This document shows positions 5,845-50,990 of a DNA stretch of 64,000 nt, piece by piece. Both the position numbers and the translations under genes were made by a program. Source of the DNA: Thioclava marina. Lineage in GTDB: Bacteria; Pseudomonadota; Alphaproteobacteria; Rhodobacterales; Rhodobacteraceae. The stretch covers positions 1,550,001 to 1,614,000 of the forward strand of contig NZ_MPZS01000001.1 of NCBI RefSeq assembly GCF_002020135.1. Direction: 5' to 3'. Position 1 is the first letter of the stretch; each line of letters starts with the position of its first letter. The notes under the pieces are model-generated. The model had not been told where the DNA came from and ran no database searches. It was given only the letters and a program-made list of their open reading frames with translations.

Positions 5845-7914
<2,070 letters not shown>

Positions 7915-7919
7915 GGAAT

Positions 7920-7939
7920 GGGAGGGGCGCGCCCCTCCC
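7920..7939. terminator. Perfect 20-bp palindrome between convergent genes
   Basis: GGGAGGGGCGCGCCCCTCCC lies immediately between the stop of fadH and the stop of the convergent SDR gene. With no T-run it is a candidate bidirectional transcription barrier and not a textbook intrinsic terminator. Confidence 0.55.
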
Positions 7940-7941
7940 GC

Positions 7942-8682
7942 TCAGATACAGCGCCCGCCATCGACCTCCATCGCGACGCCGGTGATCATGCTCGCTTCGT
8001 CCGAGCACAGAAACAGCGCCGCGTTGGCCATATCCTCGGGGGTCGAAAACCGCCCGAGCGGGATCGTGGCGAGGAATTTCGCGCGTACCTCGGGCGTGTC
8101 TTCGCCCATGAAGCTTTTCAGAAGCGGCGTCTCTCCGGCGACCGGATTGATTGCGTTGACGCGGATACCCTCGGGAGCAAGCTCCACCGCCATCGCGCGG
8201 GTCGCGGTGATCATCCAGCCCTTCGAGGCATTGTACCAGTTGAGCCTGGGTCGCGGGCTCACGCCAGCGGTGGAGGCCACGTTGAGGATCGCACCCGAGC
8301 CCTGCGCCTTCATCAGCGGTACGATGTGGCGCGCGGTCAGGTAGACCGACTTGGCATTCACGTTGAGGACACGGTCGAACTCTTCCTCGGTGACCTCTTC
8401 CATCGGTTTGGGCAGATGGGTCGTGCCTGCATTGTTCACGAGGATGTCGATCCGACCCCAGGTGTCCTGCGCGGCCCTGGTCATCGCGGCGACATCCGCA
8501 TTGCGGCTGACATCGACAGCGCAGGCGATCCCGCCGATCTCCTTGGCGACCGCCTGCGCGGCGTCTTCGTTCAGATCGGCGACCATGACGCGCGCGCCCT
8601 CGGCGGCGAAACGGCGCGCGATGCCCGCGCCGAAGCCCGAACCCGCACCGGTGACGATGGCGGTCTTGTTCTCAAGTCTCAT
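7942..8682 (-). CDS. SDR-family oxidoreductase (3-oxoacyl-ACP reductase-like)
   Basis: A 246-aa classical short-chain dehydrogenase. It has the cofactor motif TGAGSGFGAG near residue 11, the DLN acidic position after the second strand (suggesting NAD preference), the NNAG motif, and the catalytic Tyr-x3-Lys in WYNASKGW. The C-terminus MEVDGGRCI is typical of FabG-like enzymes. The ATG at 8682 is preferred over an upstream start at 8730 because GGAGGAG precedes it. Substrate is unknown. Convergence with fadH may hint at a role in fatty-acid metabolism. Confidence 0.85.
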   Translation of the reverse strand: MRLENKTAIVTGAGSGFGAGIARRFAAEGARVMVADLNEDAAQAVAKEIGGIACAVDVSRNADVAAMTRAAQDTWGRIDILVNNAGTTHLPKPMEEVTEEEFDRVLNVNAKSVYLTARHIVPLMKAQGSGAILNVASTAGVSPRPRLNWYNASKGWMITATRAMAVELAPEGIRVNAINPVAGETPLLKSFMGEDTPEVRAKFLATIPLGRFSTPEDMANAALFLCSDEASMITGVAMEVDGGRCI

Positions 8683-38034: not shown

Positions 38035-38901
38035 ATGAGCGACAGCCCAGCCCTTCCGCCGCCGTTCCGGCTGATCCGCCCCGCGGCGGTACACACGGCT
38101 GCGATCTTCGCCTCGCCGCATTCGGGTGCGCATTATCCGCAAAGTCTCCGCGATCGCACGGTGCTCGACATGGCGCGGCTGCGTTCTTCCGAGGATGCTT
38201 TCGTGGATCGCTTGCTTGCGCCGGTGCCGCGGCTTGGGGCGCCTTTGCTTGCAGCGGAGTATCCGCGCGCCTGGGTGGATCTCAACCGCGGGCCCGAGGA
38301 GCTCGATTCGGCCCTGATCGCAGGGTTGGAACGTTCGACCCCGAGCCCGCGCGTCGCCGCCGGTCTCGGCGTCATTCCGCGGGTCGTTTCGGGCGCGCGC
38401 GCGATCTATCGCGGCAAGATCCCCAGGATGGAGGCCGAGGCGCGGCTCAACCATGTCTGGCATCCCTATCACGACCAGCTGGCGGCGCTGATGATCGAGG
38501 CGCATCGCGCGTTCGGTCAGGCGATCCTGCTCGACGTGCATTCCATGCCCTCCGAGGCGCTCGATTCGCTTGGCCATCGGCGCCCTCAGATCGTGCTCGG
38601 GGATCGCTACGGAGCGAGTGCGGATCGCGCGCTGATGCGCGAGGTCGAGCTCGCCTTCAGCGATGAGGGGCTTTCGGTGTCGCGCAACAGTCCGTTTGCC
38701 GGGGCGTATATCGCGCAACGCTACGGGCGGCCGCGCGAGGGATATCACGTCATCCAGATCGAGATCGACCGGGCGCTCTACATGGATCAGGAAGCGATCG
38801 CGCCGAGCGCCGAGTTCAAGGCCTTTGCCGCGGTGATGGAGCGGGTGGCCGCGAAGATCGTGAGGCTCGGGGCGCAGCCGTTGCGTCACGCCGCAGAGTA
38901 G
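38035..38901 (+). CDS. N-formylglutamate amidohydrolase family protein
   Basis: A 288-aa metallohydrolase. It has the metal-binding ASPHSGAHYP near residue 26, DLNRGPEELD at ~80, LDVHSMPS at ~165, and the C-terminal EIDRALYMDQ. The family includes HutG, which frees glutamate from N-formylglutamate in histidine degradation, though hut genes are not nearby, so another N-acyl amino acid may be the substrate. It is convergent with dinB, with a single base between the stops. Confidence 0.86.
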   Translation: MSDSPALPPPFRLIRPAAVHTAAIFASPHSGAHYPQSLRDRTVLDMARLRSSEDAFVDRLLAPVPRLGAPLLAAEYPRAWVDLNRGPEELDSALIAGLERSTPSPRVAAGLGVIPRVVSGARAIYRGKIPRMEAEARLNHVWHPYHDQLAALMIEAHRAFGQAILLDVHSMPSEALDSLGHRRPQIVLGDRYGASADRALMREVELAFSDEGLSVSRNSPFAGAYIAQRYGRPREGYHVIQIEIDRALYMDQEAIAPSAEFKAFAAVMERVAAKIVRLGAQPLRHAAE

Positions 38902-38902
38902 A

Positions 38903-40165
38903 TCACGACCCGTCCCAACCGCGCCCGAGCCGGATTGCATCCGCGCCGAACTTCGCCCGGATCGCATCCTTCGCCCGTTCCGCGCCCGCGCGTCTGCCTG
39001 CCTGCGGATCGAGAAGATCGCCCGCCGGATCGCGCCCGTCCGCTGCCGTGAGGTCCGAAAACCCGATCCCGATCAGCCGGTAGGGCGTGTTTGGGGGGAG
39101 CTTGTCGAACAAGGTCTCGCCCGCCCGGAAGAGCGTATCGGCGAGCTGGCTCGGCTCCTCCAGCCGGGTCTGCCGGGTCACGGTGGTGAAATCGGCGCGT
39201 TTGAGCTTCAGCGTCACCGTGCGCCCGGCCAGATCGCGCGCCTTCATCCGCGCCGAGACCTTCTCGGCCATGTGCCAGAGCTTGCCCATCAGGGTCTCGC
39301 GATCCGAAATATCCTCGTTGAAGGTCGTCTCGTTCGACACCGATTTGATCGGGGTATCGGGTGAGACGCGGCGCGCATCCTGACCGTTCGCCAGTTCGAA
39401 AAGCCGCCGCCCCGAGGCTCCGAACCGATCCTCCATCCGGGCGAGCCCTGCGCGGCGGATATCGGCCAGCGTTCGAATTCCGGCCCGCCCCAGCGCAGCC
39501 CGCGTCGCCGCCCCCACGCCCCAAAGGATCGACACCGGCTTGTCGCGCAGGAAGTCTTCGGTGTCGGCGCGCCCGATCACCGAAAACCCGCGCGGCTTGT
39601 CGAGATCGGAGGCGATCTTGGCGAGGAACTTGTTATGCGACAGCCCGACCGAAGCCGTCACCCCGATTTGCGTCTCGATCTCGCGGGCGAGCCGCGCCAT
39701 CTGCACCGCGGGCGGGGCGTGATGCAGCCGCGCGGTGCCGGTCAGATCGAGGAACGCTTCGTCCAGCGAAAGCGGTTCGATCAGCGGTGTCAGCGCCGCC
39801 ATCTTCTCCCGGATCTCGCGCGAGACGGCGGCGTAATGATCCATGCGCGGCCTGATGATCACCGCCTCGGGGCAGAGCTTGCGCGCCTGAAACATCGGCA
39901 TCGCCGAGCGCACGCCGGAAATCCGCGCGATATAGCAGCAGGTGGTGACCACCCCGCGCGTGCCGCCGCCGACGATCACCGCTTGCGAGGACAGCGCGGG
40001 ATTGTCGCGCTTCTCGACAGACGCATAGAAGCTGTCGCAGTCGATATGCGCAATGGGCAGATCGAAAAGTTCGGGCTGCGCGATCACACGCGCCTTGCCG
40101 CAATTGGGGCAGCGTTTGGGGGCATCATCAAAGGTGCTCAGACAGTCGCGGCAAAGGGCAGGCAT
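38903..40165 (-). CDS. dinB: DNA polymerase IV (DinB) with N-terminal zinc ribbon
   Basis: A 420-aa Y-family translesion polymerase. The catalytic core is intact, with HIDCDSFYASVEKRDNPAL (first Asp), SLDEAFLDLTG (Asp-Glu) and the helix-hairpin-helix and little-finger regions. The N-terminus has an added 35 residues with four cysteines (5, 8, 19, 22) in a CRDC...CPNC arrangement expected to bind zinc. The ATG at 40165 begins just before it; the frame is open further upstream but with no homology. SOS control is plausible, but no LexA box was recognised. Confidence 0.9.
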   Translation of the reverse strand: MPALCRDCLSTFDDAPKRCPNCGKARVIAQPELFDLPIAHIDCDSFYASVEKRDNPALSSQAVIVGGGTRGVVTTCCYIARISGVRSAMPMFQARKLCPEAVIIRPRMDHYAAVSREIREKMAALTPLIEPLSLDEAFLDLTGTARLHHAPPAVQMARLAREIETQIGVTASVGLSHNKFLAKIASDLDKPRGFSVIGRADTEDFLRDKPVSILWGVGAATRAALGRAGIRTLADIRRAGLARMEDRFGASGRRLFELANGQDARRVSPDTPIKSVSNETTFNEDISDRETLMGKLWHMAEKVSARMKARDLAGRTVTLKLKRADFTTVTRQTRLEEPSQLADTLFRAGETLFDKLPPNTPYRLIGIGFSDLTAADGRDPAGDLLDPQAGRRAGAERAKDAIRAKFGADAIRLGRGWDGS

Positions 40166-40341: not shown

Positions 40342-41991
40342 TCACCGAAAGCCGATCGATCCGGCCAGCAGCTGCGCCACCGTCGGCTGGTCGAGATAAC
40401 CGGTCACCGTCAGCCCACCAGCTTTCTGGAAGCGGCGAATCGCGCGGCGGGTGTTGTCGTCGAACACGCCATCGACCTTGCCTGGCTTGAGGCCCATCTG
40501 GGCGAGCCGCTGCTCGACGAGGGACTTCACCACGCTGGGCAGGCCAAGCGCATCCTCGCGGGCCTTCGCAGCCTTGATCGCATCGCTCTCCTGACTTTGT
40601 TGCTGCAACTCGGCGATGCGCGCCTCGGCCTCGGCCTTGAAGGCAGGGTTGGAGCGGCTCGCGAGATAGTCGCGATAGGAGGCGATCGTGTCCGCCTGAC
40701 GCGCGACATCCCAATCGGCACGATCGGCGGCCTGCGCCTCGGCGCGGCGGTCCGCCTCGATCGTGTCGAGCCTTTCCTGCGCAAGCTCGGCAAAGAGCCC
40801 GTCGGGATATTTCTTCAGATAGGCGCGCAGCCCCGCCTCATCGCCAGCCTTGCCGGTCTGCTCCCAATAGGCGCGGTCCTGACGGTCGATTTCGGCCTGA
40901 CGCGCCTCGGCCTCGGCTTTCAGCTCGGCTGCGCGCTTCTCGCCTTGCGCCGAAAGTGCGGTAAGCTGGGCACGGGTGAGATAGCCGGTCGGTTCGAACC
41001 CGCTCGCACGTTGCCAGCGCGTGATCGCCCCGCGCGATCCGGGGCCAAAGATGCCGTCCACGCCCTTCGGATCGAAATCGAGGATCGTCAGGTTCTGTTG
41101 GACTTCGCGGCGCTGATCGCGGGAAAGGTTGAGCGCCGCCTCATCGGCCTTTGCCTGTCGCTCGGGTTCGGCCTTGAGCGTGGCGATCCGGGCACGGGCC
41201 TCGTCAGCATTCGGCCCCCTGGGATAGCGATCGAGATAGAGCTGATAGGCGGTGATGGAATCCTCGGCGCGCGCCATGTCCCAATAGGGAGCAGAAGGAT
41301 CGGCCTGCGGCGTCGCAATCGGTGCAGGCGCATCCTGCGTCCCGGCGGCAAGGAAACTGTAGCTGCCGGGCAGGAAGCCGCTCGCGATCAGACCTTCGGA
41401 TTGCGCCGCGCGCATCAGCGGCGCGCCGGGCTTGACCAGATCCCCCGACATCAGCGAGGCGACCTCCCGGGGGCTGCCGCGCAAGACGGTGACGCCCTGC
41501 GGAATCGCGAGATCACCGATACCGGGTTGCGTCAGACCCCGACCCGTTCCCTCGTCATCCGCGCCCCCCAGCAGCAGCACCGCCTGCCCGGGATGGGAGG
41601 CGAGCACCGACATCACCGCCGAGAGCGGCAGTGCCTCGCTCACAGCCTCGGGCAGAGAGATGTCGCGCATGTCGGTAGGCAGGAACCAGGTCTCTGCGTC
41701 GGTATGGATGAAACGCCCCGAGAGGGCGACGACGATCCGGTCGGCATCCGCCGCACGCGTCACGAAGTCGCGAAAGCGCGCGCGAATCTCGGAAGCATCT
41801 GCGTCATCCTCAGTCAGCACCGAGAAGCCGGCCTGTTGCAAACCGGCCTCGGCCTTGGTCGGCGCATCGGCGCCACGCAGGTCGTCGATCCGGTCGTAAT
41901 TCGCGTTGCCCAGCACCAGCGCAAGATCGGCGGCATTGGCGGGCAATCCCAGCGCCGCAAGTGCGACACCTGTCAGAAGTAGTTTTCGCAT
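40342..41991 (-). CDS. Secreted caspase-fold pseudoenzyme with peptidoglycan-binding domains
   Basis: A 549-aa exported protein. It has a signal peptide (residues 1-21) and a caspase-like domain (22-~190) of the kind that begins ALVLGNANYDRIDDLRGA. The His of the usual SGHG motif is Arg93 (ALSGRFIH), and the DACR catalytic Cys segment is replaced by GGAD at 142-145, so it should be proteolytically dead. Then follow three ~40-aa repeats (YWDMARAEDSITAYQLYLDR type), and two PG_binding_1 domains (DGIFGPGSRGAITRWQ and DGVFDDNTRRAIRRFQ). It probably anchors to peptidoglycan as a scaffold. The ATG at 41991 follows GGAGG. Confidence 0.8.
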   Translation of the reverse strand: MRKLLLTGVALAALGLPANAADLALVLGNANYDRIDDLRGADAPTKAEAGLQQAGFSVLTEDDADASEIRARFRDFVTRAADADRIVVALSGRFIHTDAETWFLPTDMRDISLPEAVSEALPLSAVMSVLASHPGQAVLLLGGADDEGTGRGLTQPGIGDLAIPQGVTVLRGSPREVASLMSGDLVKPGAPLMRAAQSEGLIASGFLPGSYSFLAAGTQDAPAPIATPQADPSAPYWDMARAEDSITAYQLYLDRYPRGPNADEARARIATLKAEPERQAKADEAALNLSRDQRREVQQNLTILDFDPKGVDGIFGPGSRGAITRWQRASGFEPTGYLTRAQLTALSAQGEKRAAELKAEAEARQAEIDRQDRAYWEQTGKAGDEAGLRAYLKKYPDGLFAELAQERLDTIEADRRAEAQAADRADWDVARQADTIASYRDYLASRSNPAFKAEAEARIAELQQQSQESDAIKAAKAREDALGLPSVVKSLVEQRLAQMGLKPGKVDGVFDDNTRRAIRRFQKAGGLTVTGYLDQPTVAQLLAGSIGFR

Positions 41992-42044: not shown

Positions 42045-43265
42045 TCAGTCGTATTTGCGCTGGTCGTCGATCACCTTGCCATCATTGGGCAGCGAGCCCG
42101 GCGCGACAAGCTCGATCACGCCCTTCATCTTCAAGGCTTCGCGAATGCCGCTGTCGAAGCGTGCGGGATCGGAGGCCTCGGTCTCGATCTGCACGGTCAT
42201 CACGTCCATCTCGCCCTCGCGGGTCGCGACGACCCGGGCCCTGGAAATTTCGGCATGGGCCGCGACGAAGGCGGCGACCTGCTCGGGGCGCACGAACATG
42301 CCCTTGATCTTGGTGGTCTGATCGGCGCGGCCCATCCAGCCCTTGATGCGCATATTGGTGCGACCGCAGGGGCTGATCCCGTCCATCACGGCGGAAAGAT
42401 CGCCTGTCGCGAACCGGATCAGCGGGTAATCCGGGTTGAGCGTGGTTACGACCACTTCGCCAACCTCACCGGGAGCGACCGGGTCACCCGTGCCGGGGCG
42501 GACGATTTCGACGATCACACCTTCGTCCACAATCATCCCCTCCATCGCTGCGCTCTCGTAGGCGATATTGCCCAGATCGGCGGTGGCGTAGCATTGCAGG
42601 CAGGAAATGCCGCGATCCGCATAGCTCTGGCGTAGACTGGGGAAAAGCGCGCCGCCCGAAACGGTCGCCTTGGTGATCTTGAGCCTCTCGCCCATCTCTT
42701 CGGCTTTTTCGAGAATGATACGCAGATAGTCCGGCGTGCCCGCATAGCAGGTGGTGCCGATATCCGCGGCGGCGCGGACTTGCAGCTCTGTCTGGCCGGT
42801 CCCGGCGGGCAGGACGGCGGCGCCCACGGCGCGTGCGGCGTTCTCGAACATCATACCGGCAGGCGTCAGGTGGTAGCCGAAGCAGTTCTGCACGATATCG
42901 CCGGGTCCGACACCTGCGGCATGGGCGAACCGTCCCAGCCGCCACCAATCGCGGCTCACGTCACCGGGCTCGTAGATCGGGCCGGGCGACTGGAAGATAT
43001 GGGCGAACGCATGGGCGGGCTTCGTGGTCAGGCCACCGAAGGGCGGCGCGCCCTTCTGTGCGGCCCCGAGATCGGATTTCCGCAGGACCGGGAGCTTCGC
43101 GAGCGCCGCGCGCGAGGTGACGGAAGACGGATCGACGCCTTCCAGATGTGCCGCGATCCCCGGCGCTCTCATCGCCGCCCCGATCAGCGCGGGAAGGCAT
43201 TCGGCCAGAGAGGCCTCGCGCGCGTCGGCGCTGCGGGTTTCCAACTCGTCGAAATGCTCAACCAT
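42045..43265 (-). CDS. PaaK-like adenylate-forming protein with degenerate P-loop
   Basis: A 406-aa member of the phenylacetate-CoA ligase family, as judged from LPVLRKSDL at ~58, GGALFPSLRQSY, CLQCYATADLG, RFATGDLSAV and GRADQTTKIKGMFVRPEQV. The usual ATP phosphate-binding loop SSGTTGKP is missing: residues 92-101 read QSPGPIYEPG. It may be catalytically altered or act only on an activated partner. It is the last gene of the importer operon that begins with a conventional acyl-CoA synthetase at 50855. Confidence 0.78.
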   Translation of the reverse strand: MVEHFDELETRSADAREASLAECLPALIGAAMRAPGIAAHLEGVDPSSVTSRAALAKLPVLRKSDLGAAQKGAPPFGGLTTKPAHAFAHIFQSPGPIYEPGDVSRDWWRLGRFAHAAGVGPGDIVQNCFGYHLTPAGMMFENAARAVGAAVLPAGTGQTELQVRAAADIGTTCYAGTPDYLRIILEKAEEMGERLKITKATVSGGALFPSLRQSYADRGISCLQCYATADLGNIAYESAAMEGMIVDEGVIVEIVRPGTGDPVAPGEVGEVVVTTLNPDYPLIRFATGDLSAVMDGISPCGRTNMRIKGWMGRADQTTKIKGMFVRPEQVAAFVAAHAEISRARVVATREGEMDVMTVQIETEASDPARFDSGIREALKMKGVIELVAPGSLPNDGKVIDDQRKYD

Positions 43266-43354: not shown

Positions 43355-44179
43355 TCACGCCAGCCAACGCTTGCGGCGGCGATAGCTGCGAACGTCCCGG
43401 AAGCTCTTGCGGCCCTCGTCCGACATGCCGAGATAGAATTCCTTCACGTCCGGATTCTCGCGCAGATCAGCCGCGGGGCCGTCCATCACGATGCGGCCCG
43501 ATTCCAGGATATAGCCGTAATGGGCATAGCGCAGCGCGACGTTGGTGTTCTGTTCGGCGAGAAGGAAGGTCACGCCCTCGTTCTCGTTGACCGATTTCAC
43601 GATCTCGAAGATCTGCTCCACCAGCTGCGGCGCGAGACCCATCGAGGGTTCGTCCAGCAGGATCGTCTCGGGGCGGCTCATCAGCGCGCGACCCATCGCG
43701 ACCATCTGCTGCTCCCCGCCCGAGGTATAACCCGCCTGCGATTTGCGGCGCTCCTTCAGGCGCGGGAAGTAATTGTAGACCATCTCGAGATCGGCCTGGA
43801 TCGCGCCACGCCCGTCCTTGCGGGTATAGGCACCGGTCAGCAGATTTTCCTCGACGGTGAGGTGTTCGAAACAGTGACGGCCTTCCATCACCTGGATCAC
43901 GCCCTTGCGCACGAGATCGGCAGGGCTCATTTCCTGCACGCGCTCGCCGCGATAGGTGATCGAGCCTTTGGTGACCTCGCCGCGCTCGGATTTGAGCAGG
44001 TTCGAGACCGCCTTGAGCGTCGTCGTCTTGCCCGCGCCATTGCCGCCCAGCAGCGCGGTGATCCCGCCCTTGGGAACGTTCAGGCTGACCCCCTTCAGCA
44101 CGAGGATGACGTGATTGTAGATCACCTCGATATTGTTGACCTCGAGAAGGGTCGTGTCGGTTTTCGCAGCGTCCAGCAT
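43355..44179 (-). CDS. Liv-type ABC ATPase, LivF-like (second importer)
   Basis: A 274-aa ABC ATPase with Walker A LLGGNGAGKTTT, signature TSGGEQQMVAMGRAL and Walker B ILLDEPSMGLAP. About 25 basic residues extend beyond the usual C-terminus (RDVRSYRRRKRWLA), which is unusual for LivF. It powers the second Liv-type importer. A hairpin precedes it in the gap after the substrate-binding-protein gene. Confidence 0.9.
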   Translation of the reverse strand: MLDAAKTDTTLLEVNNIEVIYNHVILVLKGVSLNVPKGGITALLGGNGAGKTTTLKAVSNLLKSERGEVTKGSITYRGERVQEMSPADLVRKGVIQVMEGRHCFEHLTVEENLLTGAYTRKDGRGAIQADLEMVYNYFPRLKERRKSQAGYTSGGEQQMVAMGRALMSRPETILLDEPSMGLAPQLVEQIFEIVKSVNENEGVTFLLAEQNTNVALRYAHYGYILESGRIVMDGPAADLRENPDVKEFYLGMSDEGRKSFRDVRSYRRRKRWLA

Positions 44180-44202
44180 GGCTTTCTCCGGGGCGTTGGG
44201 GT

Positions 44203-44229
44203 GGCCCCCGGCGCAAGACGCCGGAGGCC
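44203..44229 (-). promoter_or_regulatory. Hairpin between substrate-binding protein and LivF genes
   Basis: An 11-bp stem with one mismatch (GGCCCCCGGCG with CGCCGGAGGCC) and a 5-base loop, without a T-run. Such stem-loops after binding-protein genes stabilise the upstream mRNA and reduce read-through. Confidence 0.6.
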
Positions 44230-44237
44230 GGTTTGGC

Positions 44238-45524
44238 TTAGTTGCACCGCTCTGCGATGTTGTTTTCCTTGGCGAAGGCCGCGGAATCTTCGGCGATCAG
44301 CGGGTCGATCACGCTCGAATCCGCTGAGATCCAGTCCGAAGCGGCGTCCCATTTGCCGTCAGCCGCGTTCCATTTGTACATGAGGCCCGAGCCCGGACCG
44401 CCGTGATCCGCACAGGTCGCCTGGATCGGCTGGGCGAAGTTCGGCAGGCCGAGTTCATTCAGACGCGCCTCGGTCAGGTCGAGCTGTTCGAAACCGTCAC
44501 GCACCTCTGCCGGCGTGACCGCCGAATGACCGTGGATCTCCTGCGCCTTGCGGATCGCTTCGGAGATGATCATCGCCGCATACATGCCGCGCGAATAGAG
44601 CATCGTGCCCACTTCGTCGCCCGCGCCCGCAGCCTTGCCGGCGTCGATCACGTATTTCTGGATGTCACCATAGACCGGGAAGTCCATGCCCGTGCCGTGG
44701 AAGGAAACGGTGGTGTAGCCATCGGCCTTGTCACCAGCCGAGCGCACGTCGTTTTCCGAACCCGACCACCAGATGCCGACGAAGTTCTCCATCGGGAAGC
44801 GGATGTTCACGGCTTCCTGGATCGCGACCTGGTTCATAACGCCCCAGCCATACATGATGACGAAATCGGGTTTCGAGCGACGGACCTGCAGCCATTGCGA
44901 CTTCTGTTCCTGACCCGGATGGTCGACCGGCAGCAATTCGAGTTCGAAACCGTCGCGCTTGGCGAGTTCCTGAAGGGTGCGGATCGGCTCCTTGCCGTAG
45001 GCCGAGTTGTGATAGACCAGAGCGATCTTCTTGCCTTCGAGCGATCCGCCGGCCTTGCCCATCAGGTATTGCTCGATGATCGAGGCGCCGTCCCAGTAGT
45101 TGGCCGGGTAGTTGAAGACCCATTCAAACACCTTGCCGTTCGCCGCCGAGGTGCGGCCATAGCCGGGCGTGTACAGAACATGCCCGTCGGCGGTCACTTT
45201 CGGAATCAGCTGGTAGGTGATGCCGGTCGAGAGCGGGTTATAGGCCAGTGCGCCGTCGCCCTTGGTCGACTCGTAGCATTCCACACCTTTCTCGGTGTTG
45301 TACGCGGTCTCGCATTCCGGCACGCGCACCATCTCGCCGCCGATCCCGCCGTCACGTTCGTTGAGCAGCGTGAAATAGTCGTTGAAGCCATCGGCATAGG
45401 GAATGCCGTTCGCGGCGTAGGGGCCGGTGCGATAGCTGAGGTTCGGCACCACCAGCTCGGCGAAGGCCGGAGCCGTGGTCAGCGTCATCGCCGCCGCGAC
45501 CAGAGCGGTAAAGGTCTTCTTCAT
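44238..45524 (-). CDS. Liv-type periplasmic substrate-binding protein (second importer)
   Basis: A 428-aa exported protein with a Sec signal peptide ending at APAFAE (residue ~22) and the type I periplasmic-binding fold. SYRTGPYAANGIPYADGF and KKIALVYHNSAYGKEP are features of the branch found beside CoA ligases. Four cysteines in the mature part could form disulfides. The ligand is presumably an aromatic or other carboxylic acid, inferred from the two ligase-type genes of the operon. Confidence 0.9.
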   Translation of the reverse strand: MKKTFTALVAAAMTLTTAPAFAELVVPNLSYRTGPYAANGIPYADGFNDYFTLLNERDGGIGGEMVRVPECETAYNTEKGVECYESTKGDGALAYNPLSTGITYQLIPKVTADGHVLYTPGYGRTSAANGKVFEWVFNYPANYWDGASIIEQYLMGKAGGSLEGKKIALVYHNSAYGKEPIRTLQELAKRDGFELELLPVDHPGQEQKSQWLQVRRSKPDFVIMYGWGVMNQVAIQEAVNIRFPMENFVGIWWSGSENDVRSAGDKADGYTTVSFHGTGMDFPVYGDIQKYVIDAGKAAGAGDEVGTMLYSRGMYAAMIISEAIRKAQEIHGHSAVTPAEVRDGFEQLDLTEARLNELGLPNFAQPIQATCADHGGPGSGLMYKWNAADGKWDAASDWISADSSVIDPLIAEDSAAFAKENNIAERCN

Positions 45525-45599
45525 AGAGTTCTCCTCCCAGAGATATCTTCGTTCACGCCGGGCTCGTCCCGGTTCTTGGGGTTGTTGGGCGGCCCCGCC

Positions 45600-46676
45600 T
45601 TAGTGCGGGAAGGGCCAAAGCCGGAGTTTCTCTTTCGCCACGCGCCAGAGCTGCGCGAGGCCATGCGGTTCCGCGATCAGGAAGGTCACGATCAGACCGC
45701 CGACGATCATCAGCTCGATATGAGCGGCCAGATCGGTCGGCCATCCAAGCGTGCCGACGAGCACGTTCTTGAGGAAGACCGGCAGAAGCACGAGGAAGGC
45801 CGCGCCCGCAAACGAACCGAAGATCGAGCCCAGACCGCCGATGATCACCATGAAGAGGATCAGGAAGGATTTCTGGATCCCGAAAGCTTCGCCCACTTCG
45901 GCCGCGCCCAGGTAGACCGCGAAGAACAGCGCGCCTGCGATACCGATGAAGAAGGAGCTGACTGCAAAGGCCGAAAGCTTCGTCGTCAGCGGGTTCACCC
46001 CGATGATCTCGGCCGCGATATCCATGTCGCGGATCGCCATCCATTTGCGCCCCACCGTGCCGCGCGTCAGGTTGCGAGCCACCAGCGCCACGATCGTCAG
46101 CATCACCAGGCAGAACATGTATTTCGCCATCGCCGAGGTCTGCGCACCTGTGACGAACACGCCGAAAACCGTGCGCTCGGGCGCGTTGATCTGACCCGAG
46201 GCCGAGTAGTTGTAGAACCACGGCACCTTGTTGAAGAGCCAGACCAGGAAGAACTGCGCCGCCAGCGTGGCCACCGCGAGGTAGAACCCCTTGATGCGCA
46301 GGCTCGGCAGGCCGAACAGAACCCCGACCGCAGCCGTGATACCGCCCGCGAGAAGGACGTGGATGAAGATCGACACTTCGGGGAAGGCGGTCATCAGCTT
46401 GTAGACGGCATATGCGCCCACAGCCATGAAGCCCCCGGTCCCGAGCGACACCTGCCCCGCATAGCCCACGAGGATGTTCAGACCGATCGCCGCGATGGCG
46501 TAGATCAGGAACGGCACCGCGACCGCGTTCGCCCAGTAATCGTTGATCAGCAGCGGCACGACTCCGAAGGCAATCGCCAGCACCACATAGTAACGCAGCC
46601 GGTCGAACTTGATCGGGAAAGTCTGGCTGTCCTCCCGGTAGGACGTTTTGAAATCACCTGCTTCGCGGTAAAACAT
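45600..46676 (-). CDS. Liv-type ABC permease, LivM-like (second importer)
   Basis: A 358-aa permease with the LivM features IGLNILVGYAGQVSLGTGGF and VGRKWMAIRDMDIAAEIIG, with about ten helices. The N-terminus (MFYREAGDFKTSYREDSQTF) is soluble and typical of this branch. The ATG at 46676 follows GGGAGAGG. It is preceded by a 59-codon ORF on the same strand. Confidence 0.9.
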   Translation of the reverse strand: MFYREAGDFKTSYREDSQTFPIKFDRLRYYVVLAIAFGVVPLLINDYWANAVAVPFLIYAIAAIGLNILVGYAGQVSLGTGGFMAVGAYAVYKLMTAFPEVSIFIHVLLAGGITAAVGVLFGLPSLRIKGFYLAVATLAAQFFLVWLFNKVPWFYNYSASGQINAPERTVFGVFVTGAQTSAMAKYMFCLVMLTIVALVARNLTRGTVGRKWMAIRDMDIAAEIIGVNPLTTKLSAFAVSSFFIGIAGALFFAVYLGAAEVGEAFGIQKSFLILFMVIIGGLGSIFGSFAGAAFLVLLPVFLKNVLVGTLGWPTDLAAHIELMIVGGLIVTFLIAEPHGLAQLWRVAKEKLRLWPFPH

Positions 46677-46716
46677 CAGCCTCTCCCTTTCCCGAGGGAG
46701 AGACGATGTCCTCCCG

Positions 46717-46896
46717 TCAGCAGCCGCGCCGGATCCTGACCCAGGCCCAGAGCCCGGCCCCGGCGCCAAGCGCCGCCAGTGCGATATTCAGTGTTTGCAG
46801 TTGCGTCGGTTCTTCCGGCGGCGCGGCCAGCGCGATCCAGCCGAAGGCCAGCGCGGCCCCCCAGCCGATCGTGAAAACGGTTGCGCAGGTCTTCAT
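46717..46896 (-). CDS. 59-aa two-TM small protein inside the importer operon
   Basis: MKTCATVFTIGWGAALAFGW is followed by a short Pro/Glu loop and a second helix (NIALAALGAGAGLWAWV). GGAGG lies before the ATG at 46896. Its place between the LivH-like and LivM-like genes suggests an auxiliary subunit or an operon-linked small membrane protein. No family is recognised. Confidence 0.6.
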   Translation of the reverse strand: MKTCATVFTIGWGAALAFGWIALAAPPEEPTQLQTLNIALAALGAGAGLWAWVRIRRGC

Positions 46897-46918
46897 CGGT
46901 AACGGTCCTCCCAAAGCT

Positions 46919-46936
46919 CGTCACGGTGTCGTGACG
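46919..46936. promoter_or_regulatory. Inverted repeat CGTCACG-GTGT-CGTGACG
   Basis: A perfect 7-bp inverted repeat with a 4-base spacer, 23 bases upstream of the 59-aa gene. It lies in a 136-base gap inside the operon, which may hold a secondary promoter or an mRNA hairpin. Confidence 0.45.
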
Positions 46937-47032
46937 GCGGGCTCCCTTCCCGTTGACGCCACGACATGTGACAGCTTGTCGCACCCCTGCGCACCGATCA
47001 AGAAATTTCTCTCGCTGCAGTTGCATCATGGC

Positions 47033-48022
47033 TCAGACCCTCTCGATGATCTTCTCGCCGAACAGGCCCTGCGGCCGGAACACGAGGAAGACGAGCGCGA
47101 GGACATAGGCGAACCAGTTCTCGGTCGCGCCGCCCAGGAAGGGGGCGCCGATCAGAAGTTCGAACAGTTTTTCGCCCACACCGATGATCAGGCCGCCCAC
47201 GATGGCGCCCGGGATCGAGGTGAAGCCGCCCAGCATCAGCACCGGAAGCGCCTTGAGCGCGATCAGCGAGAGCGAGAACTGCACGCCCGATTTCGAGCCC
47301 CACATGATCCCCGCGACCAGCGCCACGAAGCCCGCGATCGACCAGACGAGGATCCAGATGAAGCGCAGCGAGATCCCGACCGACAGCGCGGCTTGGTGAT
47401 CGTCGGCCACGGCGCGCAACGCCCGGCCCTGCTTGGAGTATTGCGAGAACACCGTCAGCGCCGCTACCAGCAGCACCGCCACGACCGCGGCGACGATATC
47501 GAGATTGTCGATGAAGAAGCCGTAGCCGAACATGTTGTAGGTGACGGAATCGATGGTCTCGTTGATGCCCTGCGGCAGGCCCACATCGAGCGTCTTGATG
47601 TCCGACCCCCACATCACGTCCCCGAAGCCTTCGAGGAAATAGGCCATCCCAATCGTCGCCATGAAGAGGATGATCGGAGCCTGGTTCACCAGATGCTTGA
47701 GCACCAGCTTCTCGATGATGATGGCGAGCACCACCATCACGCCAGCGGCCAGCAGGATTGCGACGAGTGCCGGCACTTCCCACGGGAAATTCGTGTAATG
47801 CTTGCCCGTCATCGCGTTGAGGAGATGGGCGAAGGGCACCTGACCCTTCTGAATGCCGACCAGCGTCAGCGCCGCGAACAGCGCCAGCACGCCCTGCGCA
47901 TAGTTGAAGATGCCCGAGGCCTTGAAGATCAGCACGAAGCCGAGCGCCACGAGCGCATAAAGCACCCCTGCCATCAGGCCGTTCAGCGTCACCTCGGCGG
48001 CGTAGAGAACGATATCAGGCAT
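47033..48022 (-). CDS. Liv-type ABC permease, LivH-like (second importer)
   Basis: A 329-aa permease with the LivH features GVLYALVALGFVLIFKASG, IFNYAQGVLALF and VADDHQAALSVGISLR. A 20-residue insertion around QKGQVPFAHLLNAMTGKHYT is characteristic of the long LivH branch linked to CoA ligases. It is separated from the LivG-like gene by 38 bases. Confidence 0.9.
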   Translation of the reverse strand: MPDIVLYAAEVTLNGLMAGVLYALVALGFVLIFKASGIFNYAQGVLALFAALTLVGIQKGQVPFAHLLNAMTGKHYTNFPWEVPALVAILLAAGVMVVLAIIIEKLVLKHLVNQAPIILFMATIGMAYFLEGFGDVMWGSDIKTLDVGLPQGINETIDSVTYNMFGYGFFIDNLDIVAAVVAVLLVAALTVFSQYSKQGRALRAVADDHQAALSVGISLRFIWILVWSIAGFVALVAGIMWGSKSGVQFSLSLIALKALPVLMLGGFTSIPGAIVGGLIIGVGEKLFELLIGAPFLGGATENWFAYVLALVFLVFRPQGLFGEKIIERV

Positions 48023-48060
48023 GACGCGCCTCCGATTTCTGAATTGCGATGCGGATGGTG

Positions 48061-48882
48061 TCAGTCATGGGCCACCCCCAGATAGGCGTCGATGACGTCC
48101 TGATTGTTGCGCACCTCGTCGGGGGTGCCGTCGCCGATCTTCTTGCCGTAATCCATCACCACGACGCGGTCGGAGAGGTCCATGACCACGCCCATGTCGT
48201 GTTCGATCAGCACGATCGTGGTGCCGAATTCGTCGTTCACGTCGAGAATGAAGCGGCTCATGTCCTCTTTTTCCTCGACGTTCATCCCCGCCATCGGTTC
48301 GTCGAGCAGCAACAGCTTCGGCTCTGCGGCCAGCGCGCGCGCCAGCTCGACCCGCTTCTTGAGACCATAGGGCAGACGACCGACCGGCGTTTTCCGTATA
48401 TTCTGGATCTCGAGAAAGTCGATGATCTTCTCGACCTTTTCGCGATGCTCGTCCTCTTCCTTGGCAGCCCCCGTCCACCACCAGCCGGCCTGCGCCAGAA
48501 GACCGCTTTTCATATGAGTCAGGCGTCCGGTCATGATGTTGTCGAGCACCGACATGCCATCAAACAACGCGATGTTCTGGAAGGTCCGGGCGATGCCGAG
48601 GCGGGCGACCTGGTAGGGCTTCATCGGCCCGCGCTTGACGCCCTTGAACATCACCTCGCCCTCGGTCGGGATGTAGAAGCCCGAGATCACGTTCAGCATC
48701 GAGGATTTGCCCGCGCCGTTCGGACCGATGATCGCGCGGATCTCGCCGTCGCGAATGTCGAAGGAGATGTCCTTGATCGCCACGACCCCGCCGAAGCGCA
48801 GCGTGATGTTCTTCATCTCCATGATCACGCCGCCGATCTGGCGGCCGTCGGCGGTGACGTAGCCGTCGCTCATATCATTCAT
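48061..48882 (-). CDS. Liv-type ABC ATPase, LivG-like (second importer)
   Basis: A 273-aa ABC ATPase. Walker A is IIGPNGAGKSSML, Walker B LLLLDEPMAGMN and the H-loop LIEHDMG; the signature LPYGLKKRVELAR is a variant of LSGGQ. A C-terminal YLGVAHD closes it. The stop of the upstream acyl-CoA synthetase overlaps its ATG by four bases, coupling importer and ligase. Confidence 0.9.
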   Translation of the reverse strand: MNDMSDGYVTADGRQIGGVIMEMKNITLRFGGVVAIKDISFDIRDGEIRAIIGPNGAGKSSMLNVISGFYIPTEGEVMFKGVKRGPMKPYQVARLGIARTFQNIALFDGMSVLDNIMTGRLTHMKSGLLAQAGWWWTGAAKEEDEHREKVEKIIDFLEIQNIRKTPVGRLPYGLKKRVELARALAAEPKLLLLDEPMAGMNVEEKEDMSRFILDVNDEFGTTIVLIEHDMGVVMDLSDRVVVMDYGKKIGDGTPDEVRNNQDVIDAYLGVAHD

Positions 48883-50855
48883 TCCGCTGCCTCCGCCATC
48901 GTCTTCGCCGACACGACCTTCGCATCCGCGATCTTCAGCGTCGCCTTGATCGAGCCCTTGCGGCCGTCCTCGTAGGTCACTTCGGTCTCGGTGTAGATCT
49001 CGTCGCGGCCGTCATAGAGCGCCCCGATCAGATCGGCGAATTTCTCGCCGATCACGTTGCGGCGCACCTTGCGGGTGCGGGTCATCTCGCCGTCATCAGC
49101 ATCGAGTTCCTTGTGCAGGATCAGGAAGCGATGGACCTGACAGCCAGAGAGCATCGGGTCTTCGGCGATATTCGCATTCACCTCTTCGACATGCTCGCGG
49201 ATCATCTCGTAGACGCGCGGATGACCCGCAAGCTCCTGATAGGAGGCGTAGGAGATGTTGTTGCGCTCGGCCCAGTTGCCGACCGCCGTGAGGTCGATAT
49301 TGATGAAGGCCGTGCAGCGGTCACGCCCTGCGCCGAACACCACCGCCTCGAGGATCGAGGGATAGAATTTCAGCTTGTTTTCCACGTATTTGGGCGCGAA
49401 CAGGCGGCCGTCGGCCATCTTGCCCACATCCTTCGCGCGGTCGATGATCCGCAGGTGGCCGGTGTCTTCCTCGAAGAAACCCGCATCGCCCGTCGCGACC
49501 CAACCTTCCGGGTCCTTGGTCGAGGCCGTGCTCTCGGCGTTCTTGTAGTATTCCACGAAGGTGCCGGGGCTGCGGTAATAGACCTCGCCATTCTCGCCGA
49601 TCTTTACCTCGACGCCCGGGCTGGGCACGCCCACGGTATCGGCGCGCACTTCGCCATCGGGCTGCTGCGTGATGAAGACCGAGGCCTCGGTCTGACCGTA
49701 AAGCTGCTTCAGGTTGATCCCGAGCGAACGATAGAAGGAGAAGATCTCCGGCCCGATCGCCTCGCCCGCGGTGTAGCCCACGCGGATGCGCGAGAAACCA
49801 AGCGTGTTCTTCAACGGCCCGTAGATGAACAGATTGCCCAGTGCATAGGAAAGACGCTGGCCGAAGCTGACAGGTTTGCCGTCGAGAATATCGGGGCCAA
49901 CCTCGCGCGCGACTTTCATGTAGCGGTCGAACAGCTTCTTCTTCAGCTTGCCCGCATCTTCCATGCGGATCATCACCGAGGTGAGCTGATTTTCGAACAC
50001 CCGCGGCGGCGCGAAGAAATAGGTCGGGCCGATCTCACGCAGGTCGGTCATCATCGTCTCGGGGCTTTCGGGGCAGTTCACGGTGAAACCCGCCCACATC
50101 GCCTGACCGATCGAGAAGATGAAGTCCCCCACCCAGGCCATCGGCAGATAGGCGAGCACTTCGTCATTGTGGTTGAGATGGTCGAACTCACTCGAGGCTT
50201 TCGCGGTCTCGATGATGTTGCGGTTCGACAGAACCACGCCTTTCGGCTTCCCGGTCGTGCCCGAGGTGTAGAGCATCACGCAGGTGCTGTCATAGGTCAG
50301 CTCGGCGATGCGCTTGTCGAGCTCCGCCTCATAGCGTTGATGGCCAGCACGGCCCTCATCCTGCACGTCCTCCAGCGCATTCATGCGCGAGTGGTCGTAT
50401 TTCCGCATGCCGCGCTTGTCGGTATACATCACGTGCTTGATGGCGTGGATGCGGTCTTCGATCTCGACGATCTTGTCGACCTGCTCCTGATCGCCGCACA
50501 CGACGAAGCGCGCGCCGCAGTGCTCCATCACATAGGCCATCTCTTCGGCCGCTGCGTCCTGATAGAGCGGCACAGGGACCGCGCCACACATCTGCGCGGC
50601 CACCATCGACCAGTAATGCATCGGACGGTTACGCCCGATGATGGCGATATGATCGCCCCGTTCCACGCCAAGGCTCAGGAAGCCAAGCGCCATGGAGCGG
50701 ATTTCCTCCGCCGCCTGCGCCCAGGTCCAGCTCTGCCAGATGCCGAATTCCTTTTCGCGATAGGCGGGGTAGCCGCCATATCGGGCCACGTTCCGCGCCA
50801 AAAGCGCAGGAATCGATTGGGCAGATGTCTGCCCCTTCGCGACTGCGTCAGCCAA
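48879..50855 (-). CDS. Long-chain acyl-CoA synthetase-type AMP-dependent ligase
   Basis: A 658-aa adenylate-forming enzyme that activates a carboxylic acid to its CoA ester. It has the intact P-loop LYTSGTTGKPKGVVLSN, the GYTAGEAIGPEIF and YGQTEAS motifs, and the hinge IDRAKDVGKMADG. The start is a TTG at 50855: GGGAGGAAAAT precedes it and the family N-terminus begins there (LADAVAKGQTSAQ); an ATG further upstream, at 50948, adds an unconserved tail. It is the first gene of the importer operon, so it presumably activates the imported acid. Confidence 0.88.
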   Translation of the reverse strand: MADAVAKGQTSAQSIPALLARNVARYGGYPAYREKEFGIWQSWTWAQAAEEIRSMALGFLSLGVERGDHIAIIGRNRPMHYWSMVAAQMCGAVPVPLYQDAAAEEMAYVMEHCGARFVVCGDQEQVDKIVEIEDRIHAIKHVMYTDKRGMRKYDHSRMNALEDVQDEGRAGHQRYEAELDKRIAELTYDSTCVMLYTSGTTGKPKGVVLSNRNIIETAKASSEFDHLNHNDEVLAYLPMAWVGDFIFSIGQAMWAGFTVNCPESPETMMTDLREIGPTYFFAPPRVFENQLTSVMIRMEDAGKLKKKLFDRYMKVAREVGPDILDGKPVSFGQRLSYALGNLFIYGPLKNTLGFSRIRVGYTAGEAIGPEIFSFYRSLGINLKQLYGQTEASVFITQQPDGEVRADTVGVPSPGVEVKIGENGEVYYRSPGTFVEYYKNAESTASTKDPEGWVATGDAGFFEEDTGHLRIIDRAKDVGKMADGRLFAPKYVENKLKFYPSILEAVVFGAGRDRCTAFINIDLTAVGNWAERNNISYASYQELAGHPRVYEMIREHVEEVNANIAEDPMLSGCQVHRFLILHKELDADDGEMTRTRKVRRNVIGEKFADLIGALYDGRDEIYTETEVTYEDGRKGSIKATLKIADAKVVSAKTMAEAAE

Positions 50856-50990
50856 ATTTTCCTCCCTCGCGCCGGTTGCCCGGCGTCCCTTTCCGCACAG
50901 GGCGAATCCTCCGCGCCCAGTTCGGCATGAGCGAAGACTGGCTGTCAAAGTTTTCGTGATCTTTTCGCGATTCTAACGAATTCTTACAGC

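Follow-up and report, generated by a model that had tools for sequence, protein, structure and literature searches.

Caspases are a protease type known from cell death. A gene within a 64,000-nucleotide stretch of Thioclava marina DNA (the window, hereafter) raises the question of what a caspase-like domain does in a protein that has lost the catalytic residues and is joined to peptidoglycan-binding domains. An earlier sequence-only reading had described the ORF at 40342-41991 as carrying a caspase-like domain, three repeats and two peptidoglycan-binding domains, an observation that is confirmed as a whole. Its interpretation is partly supported: the caspase fold, the missing nucleophile and a wall-anchoring architecture stand, whereas the scaffold or ligand-binding role is one that we infer. 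We consider it moderately probable that the protein is a wall-anchored, non-catalytic periplasmic binding protein (a pseudoenzyme) and a variant of the pseudo-orthocaspases.

Domain layout and fold

The ORF lies on the minus strand and encodes 549 residues plus a stop codon; GGAGG can be read just 5' of its start at 41991. The closest named relative, from Thioclava pacifica, shares 93% identity. The parts of the gene are as follows, with conservation counted over the 136 cysteine-less relatives defined in the next section:

40342..41991, minus strand: coding sequence of the probably wall-anchored pseudocaspase, 549 aa plus stop (ORF call; full-length relatives exist)
41932..41991, minus strand: predicted Sec signal peptide, residues 1-20, ending in PANA before ADL (read by eye; Ala20 in 92% of 136 relatives)
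41344..41931, minus strand: caspase-fold domain, residues 21-216 (Pfam C14 match, AlphaFold2 model and MALT1 match)
41713..41715, minus strand: Arg93, replacing the catalytic His (alignment columns)
41710..41712, minus strand: Phe94, replacing the residue after the catalytic His
41557..41568, minus strand: GGAD, residues 142-145, replacing DACR (Ala144, at 41560-41562, is the Cys site)
41491..41502, minus strand: PQGV motif, residues 164-167, where conservation within the dead domain is highest (86-99% at each position over 136 rows)
41173..41283, minus strand: helical repeat 1, W237 to about 273 (model and sequence repeats)
40954..41130, minus strand: peptidoglycan-binding domain 1 (PGB1), residues 288-346 (Pfam PG_binding_1; SltB3 match)
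40756..40866, minus strand: helical repeat 2, W376 to about 412 (model and sequence repeats)
40603..40713, minus strand: helical repeat 3, W427 to about 463 (model and sequence repeats)
40354..40539, minus strand: peptidoglycan-binding domain 2 (PGB2), residues 485-546 (Pfam PG_binding_1, best stretch 492-541)

The order is thus signal peptide, caspase domain, repeat 1, PGB1, a long helix, repeats 2 and 3, another long helix and PGB2, with the three repeats of about 40 residues each, starting at W237, W376 and W427, interleaved with the wall-binding domains. PG_binding_1 (PF01471) scores 98.9 bits over two stretches, above the Pfam cut-off, and PGB1 resembles the lytic transglycosylase SltB3 (chain 5anz, E 0.00022). 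The caspase part has a computed pI of 4.4, and the two wall-binding parts have values of 9.95 and 10.5.

The Peptidase_C14 match (29.5 bits against a curated Pfam cut-off of 21.4) is found at residues 23-93 only and spans just the first third of the profile, whereas the structural match covers the entire domain. An AlphaFold2 model of residues 21-222, built from 11 input sequences, is of middling confidence (pLDDT 77.2, pTM 0.79), with pLDDT below 50 in segments 11-21, 127-131 and 198-202 of the model numbering. Its top Foldseek match is the MALT1 paracaspase (3v4o, E 9.5e-8, query TM 0.65); VIA-align places it on MALT1 4i1r with Z 16.2 and 3.1 A over 171 residues, and it aligns as one unit with MALT1 residues 342-565. 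Animal caspases follow at Z 13-15 among the 50 VIA-align entries listed. In a search of viral folds, all seven matches at E <= 0.001 come from large DNA viruses and are proteins that have a caspase domain or resemble caspases. The model therefore supports a caspase fold in three dimensions for the N-terminal domain, and superposition on PDB chains, with MALT1 and animal caspases as the best matches, bears out the earlier assignment. A full-length model (pLDDT 80) shows long helices at 340-378, 401-433 and 452-482; its pTM of 0.39 makes the relative placement of the domains unreliable.

The catalytic site in the protein and its relatives

Alignment puts Arg93 at the His of SGHG and Ala144, within GGAD at 142-145, at the Cys column, in line with the earlier reading of Arg93 and GGAD; the catalytic His-Cys dyad of active C14 peptidases is absent. 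The protein contains two His, at 96 and 133, and no Cys anywhere, and therefore cannot be a cysteine protease. A p20-type domain with His and/or Cys substituted defines a pseudo-orthocaspase, and the window protein has such a domain.

To place these substitutions among relatives, 171 ORFs matching the family profile were reduced by identity to 156; the first alignment omits the window protein itself (L002), a locus with the C-terminal part only (L019) and L034. The 156 distinct ORFs comprise 136 without Cys at the column and 20 with it. Since the 136 rows were selected for lacking Cys at this column, a count of zero among them adds nothing to the definition; the informative points are that no row scoring above 75 bits with the family profile has Cys there, and that the division falls on a single branch of the tree described below. 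The 20 active-type rows, also chosen through the family profile, keep GH and D-A/S-C without exception, and their residue after the His is G in 16, A in 3 and S in 1.

The Cys-less rows have moved away from this pattern to unequal degrees. Their His column reads R in 65, H in 37, A in 10, Q in 8 and other residues in 16, 109 have Phe as the next residue, and Gly (92 rows) or Ala (32 rows) replaces the Asp of DAC in 124 of 136. At the Cys column we find D in 39, E in 29, A in 16, S in 14 and other kinds in 38. None of these rows has a Cys within 8 residues of the old site, and only two have one anywhere in the domain. The picture is similar in the one-per-genus subset of 102 rows: R in 37, H in 33 and other residues in 32 at the His column, and Cys in none. 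The statement that both catalytic residues were lost therefore holds for the window protein and fails as a trait of the lineage, where 37 of 136 distinct relatives retain the His. Judged by these alignments, the fixed trait is loss of the Cys, not of both residues.

Two Cys-less rows, L139 and L156, have profile scores as low as those of the active-type rows. They form a divergent pair grouped in the tree (SH-aLRT 91); L156 reads SGRA and L139 has no SG motif. They are possibly a further branch of pseudocaspases.

The residues at the Cys column bear on whether the protein might still be an enzyme, either using a different nucleophile in the former active site or as a wall enzyme of the autolysin type. 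Asp or Glu occupies the column in 68 of the 136 relatives, and Rhodobacter sphaeroides RSP_1880, a candidate relative, has been suggested to be possibly autolytic in the sections of PMC9275681 considered here. However, the remaining 68 rows hold 13 different residues, the window protein has Ala, and no catalytic wall-enzyme family matches the protein at the curated cut-offs of Pfam and NCBIfam. We regard an enzymatic reading as very unlikely.

Descent of the cysteine-less lineage

In a quick tree from which the two site columns were left out (29 of its 153 inner branches starred), the 136 Cys-less and 20 active-type rows lie on opposite sides of one branch, with SH-aLRT 99. On the same tree the His label (H, R or other) needs at least 34 changes. 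The question whether the losses are fixed in orthologues thus receives a divided answer: yes for the Cys, no for the His. A class-wide search added 28 loci, of which 24 have GH and Cys at the site and four have no Cys: L173, L179 and L181 keep the His and have Gly at the Cys site, and L178 has Tyr and Ala. A second tree, also quick (39 of 180 inner branches starred), combined the rows of the first with 27 of the 28 loci, L172 being omitted as it occupies the same place as L154. Here too the Cys-less lineage forms one side of a branch (support 99), and the four loci, from other families of the class, group among the active-type rows, so that Cys loss needs at least three changes overall. Within these quick trees and the rows at hand, the loss in the family lineage looks separate from those in L173, L178, L179 and L181.

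Eight of the 20 active-type paralogues carry PG_binding_1 above the cut-off, and four more score just below it at 20-21 bits. The presence of intact-dyad caspases with a peptidoglycan-binding domain in the same family suggests a simple history, in which one such protein lost its Cys and persisted as a binding protein. Two individual loci are worth recording. In L159 (3824-6001) one protein combines an active-type caspase with a peptidoglycan-binding domain and with a C-type lectin match that narrowly exceeds the cut-off. In L129 about 1.5 kb separates the pseudocaspase from an active-type caspase (7025-8650, minus strand) that has a peptidoglycan-binding domain.

Selection on the caspase-fold domain

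A domain without its nucleophile might be in decay. Across seven pairs of close orthologues (the window and L032-L037) the dN/dS of the caspase domain ranges from 0.047 to 0.252, although single ratios are rough, dS approaching or exceeding 1 in some cases. These values of 0.05-0.25 in all seven pairs rule out a decaying dead gene: the caspase domain is under purifying selection. Its mean ratio of 0.169 is the highest of the five regions compared, the others being 0.095 for repeat 1, 0.100 for PGB1 (six pairs), 0.073 for the helix with repeats 2 and 3, and 0.122 for PGB2. Conservation over the 136 rows ranks the parts similarly: the mean frequency of the top residue is 0.44 in the caspase domain, the least conserved globular part, and 0.50, 0.67, 0.64, 0.50 and 0.63 in repeat 1, PGB1, repeat 2, repeat 3 and PGB2, respectively. 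The domain is thus kept, yet is the loosest of the folded parts. Trimmed to start 15 residues ahead of the domain match, the 136 proteins are 490 to 692 residues long.

Being both the least conserved part and the one with the highest mean dN/dS, the caspase domain is possibly less important than the wall-binding and helical parts. Taken to its end, this argues that the domain is ballast, and that the wall-binding domains and helical repeats work by themselves as a spacer or clamp in the wall. We consider this unlikely: ratios well below 1 in every pair speak against it, as do positions that hardly vary. The best conserved positions of the domain include Gly92, Pro164-Val167 and Gly205, and Gly92, Gly166, Val167 and Gly205 stay at 97-99%. 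The domain is also kept in 136 of 136 rows, though these rows were found through it. Purifying selection on a dead domain would fit the binding protein that we favour, with a scaffold or ligand-binding role for the domain.

Distribution among genomes

We surveyed 295 genomes, one per genus (294 genera), of the group that we take to be Rhodobacteraceae of GTDB; the NCBI name of the family of Thioclava is Paracoccaceae. Full-protein matches at E <= 1e-20 are present in 127 of the 295, at a cut-off chosen by us that the C-terminal half alone can reach; residues were read in 110 of these 127 carriers, and the other 17 are counted by E value alone. At E <= 0.001 the number rises to 287, mostly through weak matches. 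As 168 genomes have no such protein at the cut-off used, the function is not a core one. Among 385 genomes across the class, the best match to the domain profile outside the family (7.8e-18) falls within the active-type range.

This distribution bears on two roles proposed for pseudocaspases elsewhere. One is regulation of active caspases, with the protein acting as a decoy in the manner of c-FLIP for caspase-8, a kind of role known for some pseudocaspases according to the portions of PMC6426788 used here; the L129 locus, with its active-type paralogue about 1.5 kb away, would suit it. Against it, a C14 match at E <= 1e-10, the line set by us for an active-range caspase from the E value alone, is found in 46 of 127 carriers and 63 of 168 non-carriers (p 0.90), so that occurrence is independent; 81 carriers have no match at this line, and in the window genome the pseudocaspase is the only C14 match. 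A decoy function is rejected as a general role and appears highly improbable.

The other role is photosynthesis, which the same sections of PMC6426788 propose for pseudo-orthocaspases on the claim that among Alphaproteobacteria only phototrophs carry pseudo-variants. In our survey the family occurs independently of the reaction-centre genes (PF00124): carriers make up 50 of 121 genomes with these genes and 77 of 174 without (p 0.63), or 47 of 121 and 67 of 174 at a strict cut-off (p 1.0), and PF00124 finds nothing in the window genome. Photosynthesis as a general role of the lineage is contradicted by this test, and we give it almost no credence.

In 44 of the 81 carriers without an active-range caspase, Pfam C14 gives nothing at E <= 0.001, and the lineage has thus probably been undercounted. 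A published census lists 14 Rhodobacterales among 582 alphaproteobacterial sequences (PMC6426788, from the part consulted); such misses may be one reason for so small a number, and the genomes compared also differ.

Gene neighbourhood

In the window the pseudocaspase gene ends a liv-type ABC gene set, behind a PaaK-like ligase gene:

42045..43265, minus strand: PaaK-like AMP ligase, 53 bp upstream, conserved neighbour (below the curated cut-offs of Pfam and NCBIfam)
43355..50948, minus strand: LivF, Peripla_BP_6 binding protein, LivM, LivH, LivG and FadD-like acyl-CoA ligase, a proposed operon (family matches; same strand)

The liv-type set is flanked by two acyl-CoA-ligase-like genes, the FadD-like one at one end and the PaaK-like one at the other. 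No terminator-like site is listed in the 53-bp gap, and such sites are not enriched overall (7 against 7.3 in shuffles). Between LivH and LivM (46679-46704, minus strand) a ten-pair stem is followed by a T-rich stretch, which may be chance. On the other side of the gene, at 38035-40162, lie an N-formylglutamate amidohydrolase (plus strand) and DNA polymerase IV (minus strand). Look-alikes of the amidohydrolase and/or the polymerase follow the ligase in L201 and L210, which have no pseudocaspase.

Of 135 testable relatives, 88 have the ligase as the next gene upstream on the same strand, as do 66 of the 102 one-per-genus rows. The distance to the pseudocaspase in the 88 loci has a median of 41.5 bp and is at most 100 bp in 76, with one locus at 796 bp. 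With ligase presence set at E <= 1e-60, both genes occur in 96 genomes, the pseudocaspase alone in 31, the ligase alone in 118 and neither in 50. Their occurrence is independent (p 0.36), and a functional dependence on the ligase gene is not supported. In 20 stretches of 6.2-6.4 kb from 20 of the 118 ligase-only genomes in the upper part of the ligase list, no pseudocaspase relative was found among ORFs of at least 80 aa. The arrangement is widely kept where both genes exist, and neither needs the other.

Proposed role

By sequence and model, the protein has the caspase fold and no nucleophile, its lineage has lost the Cys throughout, the domain is under purifying selection, the architecture is conserved, and so is the place of the gene behind the ligase. 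In the working model of a wall-anchored binding protein, the signal peptide would export the protein, presumably after co-transcription with the ligase and liv genes, and the two PG_binding_1 domains would hold it on peptidoglycan. The caspase-fold domain, which would no longer cut, could then form with the helical repeats a surface that keeps a partner at the wall, be it a protein or a peptide derived from the wall. The protein probably descends from orthocaspases that are apparently exported, some of which still have the His-Cys dyad together with a peptidoglycan-binding domain. Selection would then have preserved a caspase fold for a purpose other than cutting.

RSP_1880 offers a possible lead as a candidate member of the family. 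In the tabulated data of PMC10470522 (Table 1), it is a peptidoglycan-binding protein co-precipitating with the divisome-associated lipoprotein DalA, and the sections of PMC9275681 at hand give it as downregulated by CenKR. Should it turn out to belong to the family, this would place the partner on the division side of the envelope. RSP_1882, a locus tag close by, is PotA; no ORF with the two ABC-ATPase motifs looked for was seen flanking the 48 ligase-less loci, many of whose flanks are about 1.5 kb, and the published CenR site of RSP_1880 was found in none of 219 loci. A more specific version of our reading, in which an exported caspase bound to the wall became, in this family, a non-catalytic adaptor of the cell wall or division machinery, expressed behind a nutrient-uptake operon, is a long shot.

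Comparison with known systems

Read from sequence, the lineage belongs with the pseudo-orthocaspases, in a form that is probably wall-anchored and presumably periplasmic, and it appears to be a widespread, little-noticed family. Among the matches listed, a search of the open literature gave nothing on point for a wall-anchored bacterial pseudocaspase. The combination of a metacaspase with a peptidoglycan-binding domain is as such already known: an earlier survey, in the portion consulted, counts this domain in 11 of 671 prokaryotic metacaspases (PMC3501461).

The best solved structural match, the MALT1 paracaspase (4i1r, 3v4o and others), is a human signalling protease, unlike the window protein, and its best rows show 14-16% identity to the domain. 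Closer at hand are the active-type orthocaspases of the family itself (20 ORFs: L129, L152, L154, L155 and L157-L171). These likewise have the caspase domain on the N-terminal side; unlike the window lineage they keep the GH and D-A/S-C motifs, and several carry Sel1 repeats above the cut-off.

Another relative in kind is SyOC of Synechocystis, also a pseudo-orthocaspase. SyOC is cyanobacterial, and the passages of PMC7889975 that describe it mention no peptidoglycan-binding domain. According to the same passages, the sole orthocaspase of most unicellular cyanobacteria is a pseudo-variant, and deletion of SyOC raised tolerance to H2O2.

The nearest comparison is with the pseudo-orthocaspases treated in the available part of PMC6426788 (Klemencic et al. 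2019), which likewise have a caspase p20 fold in which one or both residues of the His-Cys dyad are replaced. There, TPR repeats follow the domain in one group, that with FS dyads, and the common dyads of Rhizobiales are YS, YA, FS, QC and HA. In the window lineage, by contrast, the His site holds mostly R or H and the Cys site mostly D, E, A or S; the lineage also differs in having two peptidoglycan-binding domains and no link to reaction-centre genes. Pseudo-orthocaspases have so far been linked to photosynthesis and cell death. The layout of the window lineage suggests otherwise: it points to the cell wall, in genomes that mostly have no active-range caspase and with no tie to the reaction centre.
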